Source: Anaeromyxobacter dehalogenans 2CP-C
Lineage (GTDB): Bacteria > Myxococcota > Myxococcia > Myxococcales > Anaeromyxobacteraceae
NCBI RefSeq assembly: GCF_000013385.1
Contig: NC_007760.1
Span: 1,861,001-1,925,000 of the forward strand
DNA length: 64,000 nucleotides
Reading direction: 5' to 3'
Positions 22,126 through 26,733 of the stretch are shown piece by piece. A program made the translations under genes and the position numbers. The notes beneath the pieces were generated by a model, which worked only from the letters and a program-made list of their open reading frames with translations, did not search any database and had not been told where the DNA came from. Each line of letters starts with the position of its first letter. Within the stretch, counting starts at the first letter, position 1.

Positions 22126-25221
<3,096 letters not shown>

Positions 25222-25242: not shown

Positions 25243-25659
25243 TCACCGCCCCGCGGGCGGTCCCTTCTCCACCGGCCTGCCGGCGGCCACCCAGCCGTCG
25301 ATGCCGGCCGGCATCACGTACACGTTGCGGTGCCCGAAGCTGGCCGCCCGCCGGGCGGCCTCGTGGCTCGCGCTTCAACGCGTGTTCTTGCAGTAGAAGA
25401 CGAGCGGCGCGTCCTTGTCCGCCGGCAGCTCGCGCGCCTCGTACGTGCGGTACGCGACGAGCGTGGCCCCGGGCAGGTGGGCCTTCGCGTAGGTCTCCGG
25501 GCCGTTCGCGTCGAAGGCGCGGGCGCCGGGCGTGGCGAGGAGCTTCGCCACCTCGTCCACCGACGCCTCCCGGTACGGCGCGCCCTCGGCGCGCGCGGTG
25601 CCGGCGCCGGCGGCGAGGGCCGCCGCGGCGAGCACGGTGAGACGCAGGATCCGGTTCAT
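25243..25659 (-). CDS. Periplasmic rhodanese-like protein, probable selenoprotein (in-frame UGA)
   Basis: The frame runs 138 codons from ATG 25659 to TGA 25243-25245 if an in-frame UGA (25375-25377) is read through. AGAGGTG lies just upstream of the ATG. The N terminus MNRILRLTVLAAAALAAGAG is a signal peptide. Before the UGA the protein has the rhodanese features ARAFDANGPETYAKAHLPGA and LVFYCKNTR, with the active-site Cys. After the UGA the same frame continues SASHEAARRAASFGHRNVYV and MPAGIDGWVAAGRPVEKG, an intact rhodanese C-terminal half. The UGA falls where related proteins carry Cys (C-x4-C/U-x-x-S). A SECIS-like hairpin follows at the correct spacing. Selenocysteine insertion is inferred; a nonsense mutation is the alternative. 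It is convergent with thiC. Confidence 0.75.
25342..25360 (-). promoter_or_regulatory. Candidate bacterial SECIS element
   Basis: On the minus strand, GGCCGCCC, a GGC loop and GGGCGGCC form a perfect 8-bp stem. The loop starts 22 nt after the in-frame UGA and begins with G. This meets the published general bacterial SECIS features (stem-loop immediately 3' of the UGA, loop roughly 16-37 nt away, G among the first two loop bases). The region is also coding, and GC-rich sequence forms hairpins easily, so it is supportive but not proof. Confidence 0.6.
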
Positions 25660-25774
25660 GTTCACCTCTCGTGGGGGCTCGGGGTCCAGGCTGGTGAGCT
25701 AACCGGGGGCACCGGCGGCGGCATCTCCCCTCGCGGACCCACGCGGGATCACCGGTCCGGCTCCGACCTGGGCC

Positions 25775-25788: not shown

Positions 25789-26733
25789 ATGGCCCACCGG
25801 GTGACGGTGTACGAGGTCGGCCCGCGGGACGGGCTCCAGAACGAGGCGCGCACCGTCCCGACCGCGGACAAGCTGGCGCTCATCGGGGCGCTCGCGGCCG
25901 CGGGGCTGCGCCGCATCGAGGCCTCGAGCTTCGTGTCGCCGCGCTGGATCCCGCAGCTCGCCGACGCCGCCGAGGTGACGGCGGCGCTCCCCGCGGTGGA
26001 CGGGACCTCGTACGTGGTGCTGGTGCCGAACGCGAAGGGGCTGGACCGGCTCGCGATCGCGCTGGCCCGCGCGGGCGAGGGGCACCCGCCGGTGGAGGCC
26101 GCGGTGTTCCTCTCCGCCTCCGAGACGCACAACCGCAAGAACCTGAACCGCACCGTCGCCGAGACGCTCGGGGAGCTGGAGGCGCTCGTGCCCGCCGCGC
26201 TCGCCCGCGGCCTGCGCGTGCGCGGGTACGTCTCCACGGTGTGGGGCTGTCCGTACGAGGGCCCGGTCGATCCCGGCCGCGCCGCCGAGATCGTCGAGCG
26301 GCTGCTCGCGCTCGGCTGCCACCAGGTGTCGCTCGGCGACACCATCGGCGTGGGCACGCCCAACCAGACCCGCCGCATCCTGGCGCTGCTGCGCACCCGC
26401 GCCCGGCCGGAGCAGATCGCGCTGCACATGCACGACACCCGCGGCACCGCGCTCGCGAACGTGCTCGCGGGCCTGGAGGAGGGCGTCACCACCTTCGACG
26501 CCTCGATCGGCGGCCTCGGCGGCTGCCCGTACGCGCCGGGGGCCTCCGGCAACCTCGCCACCGAGGATCTCGTCTACATGCTCGACGGGATGGGGCTCGA
26601 GACCGGGGTGGACTTCCGGAAGCTGGTGGCCGCCGGCGCGCTGGCGCAGCGGCTGGTGGGGCGGACCTTGCCGGGCAAGGCGCTGCAGGCGGAGCTGGCG
26701 CGGGCGGCGCCGGTGGCGCCGGCGGGAGGCTGA
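25789..26733 (+). CDS. Hydroxymethylglutaryl-CoA lyase
   Basis: This enzyme splits HMG-CoA into acetoacetate and acetyl-CoA, the last step of leucine breakdown. The 314-residue TIM-barrel has VYEVGPRDGLQNEARTVPTA, ASSFVSPRWIPQLADA, STVWGCPYEGPVDP, LGDTIGVGTP, LHMHDTRGTALANVLAGLE (metal-binding His-x-His) and the signature GGLGGCPYAPGASGN with the catalytic Cys. It heads an acyl-CoA operon; the hydratase ATG follows 1 bp after its stop. Confidence 0.92.
   Translation: MAHRVTVYEVGPRDGLQNEARTVPTADKLALIGALAAAGLRRIEASSFVSPRWIPQLADAAEVTAALPAVDGTSYVVLVPNAKGLDRLAIALARAGEGHPPVEAAVFLSASETHNRKNLNRTVAETLGELEALVPAALARGLRVRGYVSTVWGCPYEGPVDPGRAAEIVERLLALGCHQVSLGDTIGVGTPNQTRRILALLRTRARPEQIALHMHDTRGTALANVLAGLEEGVTTFDASIGGLGGCPYAPGASGNLATEDLVYMLDGMGLETGVDFRKLVAAGALAQRLVGRTLPGKALQAELARAAPVAPAGG

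Follow-up and report, generated by a model that had tools for sequence, protein, structure and literature searches.

Rhodaneses that contain selenocysteine (Sec) are a known class. A 2026 review tabulates five such forms, including form 1 (UxxS), LYCAU (CxU) and TsoB (UxxxxU) (PMC13188914). In the table of that review, form 1 is listed with the Pfam family PF00581, the motif UxxS, the protein WP_010941598.1 and Zhang and Gladyshev 2005 as its source. In Anaeromyxobacter dehalogenans, a survey published in 2006 counted 11 selenoproteins, and no rhodanese was among them (PMC1794560).

The gene described here lies in a stretch of 64,000 nucleotides of A. dehalogenans 2CP-C (NC_007760.1, positions 1,861,001 to 1,925,000; hereafter, the window), whose genome is a single contig of 5,013,479 bases. 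Our reading is that it encodes an exported, single-domain rhodanese selenoprotein in which the UGA at codon 95 specifies Sec, and we assign a probability of about 0.93 to its identity as a selenoprotein. As the original prediction had noted, rhodanese-like selenoproteins have been described before, and the window protein is not categorically new.

When the window protein was compared with the catalogued forms, partial likenesses were found. It shares with form 1, judged by the tabulated motif alone, a rhodanese domain and a Sec followed by xxS (U-S-A-S in the window protein); however, the review table gives no upstream Cys for form 1, whereas the window protein is CxxxxU. The rhodanese part of TsoB (NF045694) aligns to residues 78-134 at a constant offset, and its UxxxxU spacing equals the CxxxxU of the window protein. 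TsoB, in contrast, resembles a rhodanese/DsbD fusion with two Sec residues and a model of 572 positions, while the window protein has 138 amino acids, one domain and one Sec, and reaches 43 of the 805 bits set as cut-off. The LYCAU rhodanese-related (seleno)protein (NF041203) also combines a rhodanese domain with a Sec located after a Cys, but the distance is two residues (CxU) instead of five (CxxxxU), and the score of the window protein is 30.8 bits for a cut-off of 115. The best NCBIfam score, 48 bits versus a cut-off of 128, was obtained by the C-terminal half with TIGR03865 (PQQ-dependent catabolism-associated CXXCW motif protein). Lastly, the canonical single-domain rhodaneses GlpE, PspE and YgaP share the fold and an active-site Cys placed after the same strand; their last loop residue is, however, usually Arg (CxxGxR), and Sec in the window protein. 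None of the curated NCBIfam selenoprotein cut-offs is passed by the lineage of the window rhodanese. Because the gene is absent from the 2006 list (PMC1794560) and scores below those cut-offs, it is likely to be unannotated in the source genome.

Results

A rhodanese frame with an internal UGA

The elements of the gene, all on the minus strand, are the following:

25243..25659, minus strand: putative rhodanese selenoprotein gene (translation and Pfam domain match)
25662..25669, minus strand: Shine-Dalgarno-like AGAGGTGA, shortly before the ATG and also found in the two closest relatives
25588..25659, minus strand: signal-peptide-like N-terminus MNRILRLTVLAAAALAAGAGTARA (sequence inspection; homologues with similar N-termini)
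25390..25392, minus strand: codon of Cys90, the catalytic Cys of the rhodanese, conserved without exception in 50 homologues
25375..25377, minus strand: UGA, the probable codon of Sec95, with which the six-residue loop C-K-N-T-R-U ends

The original prediction had placed the gene at 25243-25659 and left its strand unstated; the coordinates hold, and the gene runs from 25659 to 25243. It comprises 138 codons plus a stop, beginning with an ATG (25659-25657) and ending at a second, natural UGA (25245-25243), so that the readthrough product has 138 residues. The Pfam Rhodanese domain (PF00581) matches residues 33-125 with 53.7 bits (gathering cut-off, 22.2; E value, 3e-14) and thus extends across codon 95 (25377-25375), in keeping with the earlier claim of a rhodanese frame that is intact on both sides of the UGA and reaches a natural stop. 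The peptides quoted in support of that claim (LVFYCKNTR, SASHEAARRAASFGHRNVYV and MPAGIDGWVAAGRPVEKG) were all found in the translation. Without readthrough, the product would have 94 residues and would end within the active-site loop, four residues past the catalytic Cys.

By inspection, an A-x-A site (ARA) closes the signal-peptide-like stretch and EGAPY comes next. The signal peptide of the original prediction thus agrees with both the inspected N-terminus and the similar N-termini of homologues, and the signal-peptide-like character of this region suggests that the protein may be exported.

Homologues carry UGA or Cys at the same position

An alignment of homologues, which had been proposed as a check, showed a single column at which 37 distinct homologous domains have UGA and 29 have Cys (phylum and named genomes). 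The view that the UGA sits where related rhodaneses have Cys is thereby borne out. Homologues with UGA at this column are about 30-97% identical to the window protein and belong to other genera, families and phyla. Within the family, UGA was present in 15 of the 16 homologues whose full loop could be read (the window gene counted), and the remaining one (L038) had Cys. The closest of the named relatives compared is Anaeromyxobacter sp. PSR-1 (97% identical). UGA forms were found in Anaeromyxobacter oryzae, A. soli, Syntrophorhabdus, Syntrophus and other deltaproteobacteria, and Cys forms in Massilia, Photobacterium and Vibrio among others; the related family f2 has the motif C-x4-U-xx-CH. A tree built without the UGA column required at least seven Sec/Cys changes, compared with a mean of 14.4 for shuffled labels. 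The Arg codon of the loop is CGT in 17 UGA forms and in no Cys form, and the share of CGT among Arg codons of neighbouring frames is about 11%.

A UGA that breaks an otherwise intact domain might also be a nonsense mutation, either in a decaying pseudogene or as a sequencing error of the assembly, and short genes of high GC content are indeed often misread. The identical UGA recurs, however, in separately assembled genomes from other genera and phyla, and the sequence past the UGA is under the same constraint, the 3' half being as conserved as the 5' half between close relatives. Random stops or frameshifts at codon 95, which the original prediction had named as contrary evidence, were not seen among the relatives. 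We therefore regard a nonsense mutation as extremely improbable.

The selenocysteine machinery

The source genome encodes SelA, SelB (315 bits, C-terminal part included), SelD, whose own gene holds an in-frame UGA, and a tRNA-Sec with anticodon UCA. A search for this machinery had been suggested together with the original prediction, and lack of it would have spoken against a selenoprotein; since all four components are encoded, this objection falls. Reading of codon 95 as Sec is supported by the presence of the machinery together with the retention of UGA or Cys in distant relatives.

Among the 24 Myxococcota genomes with UGA forms, SelB above the curated cut-off was found in 22, and the two others are 61% and 66% complete. 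Detection of tRNA-Sec was achieved in 18 of the 24. In five UGA-form genomes of family f2 (G042, G044, G045, G051 and G053, with rhodanese loci L122, L124, L125, L126 and L129), SelB is present and tRNA-Sec was not detected by the Rfam model, the weak tRNA matches being tRNA-Ser or tRNA-Leu. These cases may reflect the limits of the search or a tRNA-Sec of divergent sequence. Genus g8 of the same family (G049 and G050) has Cys forms of the rhodanese; in these two genomes neither SelB above the cut-off nor tRNA-Sec was found, even under more permissive tRNA filters.

A bSECIS-like hairpin downstream of the UGA

A candidate decoding element was found past codon 95:

25342..25360, minus strand: bSECIS-like hairpin GGCCGCC-CGGCG-GGCGGCC, nt 18-36 from the U of the UGA

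Numbered in this way, nt 18-24 pair with nt 30-36, and all seven pairs are formed in the window gene. The apical loop (CGGCG, 5 nt) starts 21 nt after the UGA and has G at its second position, and the minimum free energy (MFE) of the core is -18.5 kcal/mol. Published rules for the bSECIS demand a loop of 3-9 nt, a stem of 4-16 bp, a G at loop position 1 or 2, a spacing of 16-37 nt and an MFE of at most -7.5 (PMC13188914); the window hairpin agrees with every one of them.

Across 21 UGA forms, 98.6% of the pair cells are kept, a value equalled by none of 500 shuffles; these rows were picked for a 5-nt loop, related rows inflate such counts, and shuffles of related sequences overstate significance. 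In the same set, changes on both sides were seen at three pairs (G-C to C-G, C-G to G-C and G-U to U-A). UGA forms outside the 5-nt-loop group mostly have a shorter stem and the loop GGUC. When the window gene was considered by itself, 7% of synonymous recodings paired as well, so the hairpin is only weakly unusual for a GC-rich coding sequence. The case for the hairpin rests, for this reason, on conservation across homologues.

Readthrough of UGA occurs in bacteria, and codon 95 might be read as another amino acid by a near-cognate tRNA, the Sec system not being involved. This would hardly account for homologues that exchange UGA with Cys rather than with Trp or Arg, for a genome with full Sec machinery, or for a SECIS-like hairpin with compensatory changes, and we consider it very unlikely, if slightly less so than a nonsense mutation. 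For practical purposes, pseudogene, sequencing error and near-cognate readthrough are ruled out by the conserved UGA/Cys column. The selenoprotein interpretation of the original prediction is thus upheld by the column, the machinery and the hairpin, and Sec would be incorporated at codon 95 in the cell.

The active-site loop

An alignment-based model yielded a confident rhodanese fold (pLDDT 90), and its PDB matches were solved rhodaneses. In the model, a strand (residues 86-89) is followed by the loop and by a helix (residues 97-107). Cys90 comes after the strand LVFY and opens the six-residue loop C-K-N-T-R-U before the helix; hence, Sec95 would occupy the last loop position. Arg is the residue commonly found there (CxxGxR); the source genome itself encodes several other rhodaneses of this kind. 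Neither Cys90 nor position 95 varies among the 50 homologues of an alignment in which Sec is shown as C and whose rows were selected for Sec or Cys at 95. The Cys-Sec pair proposed earlier for the catalytic loop thus corresponds, in the gene, to Cys90 and the UGA of codon 95.

Codon 95 is most probably decoded as Sec by SelB, tRNA-Sec and the SECIS hairpin within the gene. The most likely activity of the protein is the transfer of sulfur, or a reduction, by thiol/selenol chemistry that passes through a selenylsulfide of Cys90 and Sec95, although here we extrapolate from sequence. In such a mechanism, the selenol of Sec95 would attack or resolve a persulfide or disulfide of Cys90; and the Cys90-Sec95 selenylsulfide formed would be reduced again by a periplasmic thiol system. 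A cycle of this kind would make the protein an enzyme of fast sulfur transfer or of disulfide/polysulfide reduction. We give the selenylsulfide mechanism an even chance. No mechanism for a C-x4-C rhodanese was found in our literature search.

Gene neighbourhood

The rhodanese gene has two neighbours on the opposite strand:

23761..25221, plus strand: thiC, convergent neighbour (convergent in G016 too)
25789..26733 (start approximate), plus strand: HMG-CoA-lyase-like gene, divergent neighbour (A. oryzae has the same)

This context is partly kept in relatives. Pfam scans of the neighbours in the window and in five other loci (L081, L082, L083, L085 and L098) revealed no conserved functional operon partner, so the surroundings lend the substrate no independent support.

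The neighbourhood also bears on the possibility that the protein is a selenoprotein whose main job is the handling of selenium or metalloids, as a perselenide carrier or in selenite/tellurite reduction, instead of sulfur/disulfide chemistry. Rhodaneses can carry perselenide, according to a reference cited in PMC5877670, and in Geobacter the rhodanese-like extH is part of the ext gene cluster, which also encodes ExtI, a porin linked to the reduction of selenite and tellurite (PMC5877670). The window gene, however, is adjoined by thiC and the HMG-CoA-lyase-like gene and by no ext-type cluster, and a Syntrophorhabdus relative adjoins a ZnuA-type transporter. A main role in selenium handling seems unlikely, yet clearly less remote than the explanations that dispense with Sec.

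Other Sec rhodaneses

Additional rhodanese loci with in-frame UGA were met during the analysis:

(i). A second, distinct Sec-rhodanese clade with the motif VFYCRGxGU-xLS occurs in several Anaeromyxobacter genomes (L034, L036, L037, L048 and L049; about 1750-1780). Both clades are found together in G002 and G005; the second one was not found in the source genome of the window.

(ii). The Olavius Delta 1 symbiont (L096, about 1424 and 1736) carries rhodanese domains arranged in tandem, and every one of them has an in-frame UGA and a hairpin of its own.

(iii). A CXXCW-like protein of Desulfobacterales (L108, about 4082) has the sequence VFYCADNN-U-WKSY, where U marks the UGA; this corresponds to the C-W-K-S loop with Sec in place of its Cys.

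(iv). A multidomain rhodanese with VFYCGGPT-U-GMS (L107, about 4124) may lie near the form 1 type of Geobacter.

Discussion

The gene analyzed here probably adds one selenoprotein to the list of 11 drawn up for A. dehalogenans in 2006. Whether it represents a distinct, uncatalogued subfamily of exported C-x4-U rhodaneses (the loop being followed by xxSH in the Anaeromyxobacteraceae and, in a sister family, by xxCH), with repeated Sec/Cys switching and a Cys-Sec selenylsulfide redox centre, is a proposal for which we see the odds as balanced.

The C-x4-U lineage is widespread, and its scores with the curated NCBIfam selenoprotein models lie far under the cut-offs; as a consequence, databases probably contain truncated versions of these genes. 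Because Sec and Cys have been exchanged repeatedly at one loop position, and the Sec machinery has been lost in some genomes with Cys forms, this lineage offers a good natural test of the benefit of selenium in a rhodanese.
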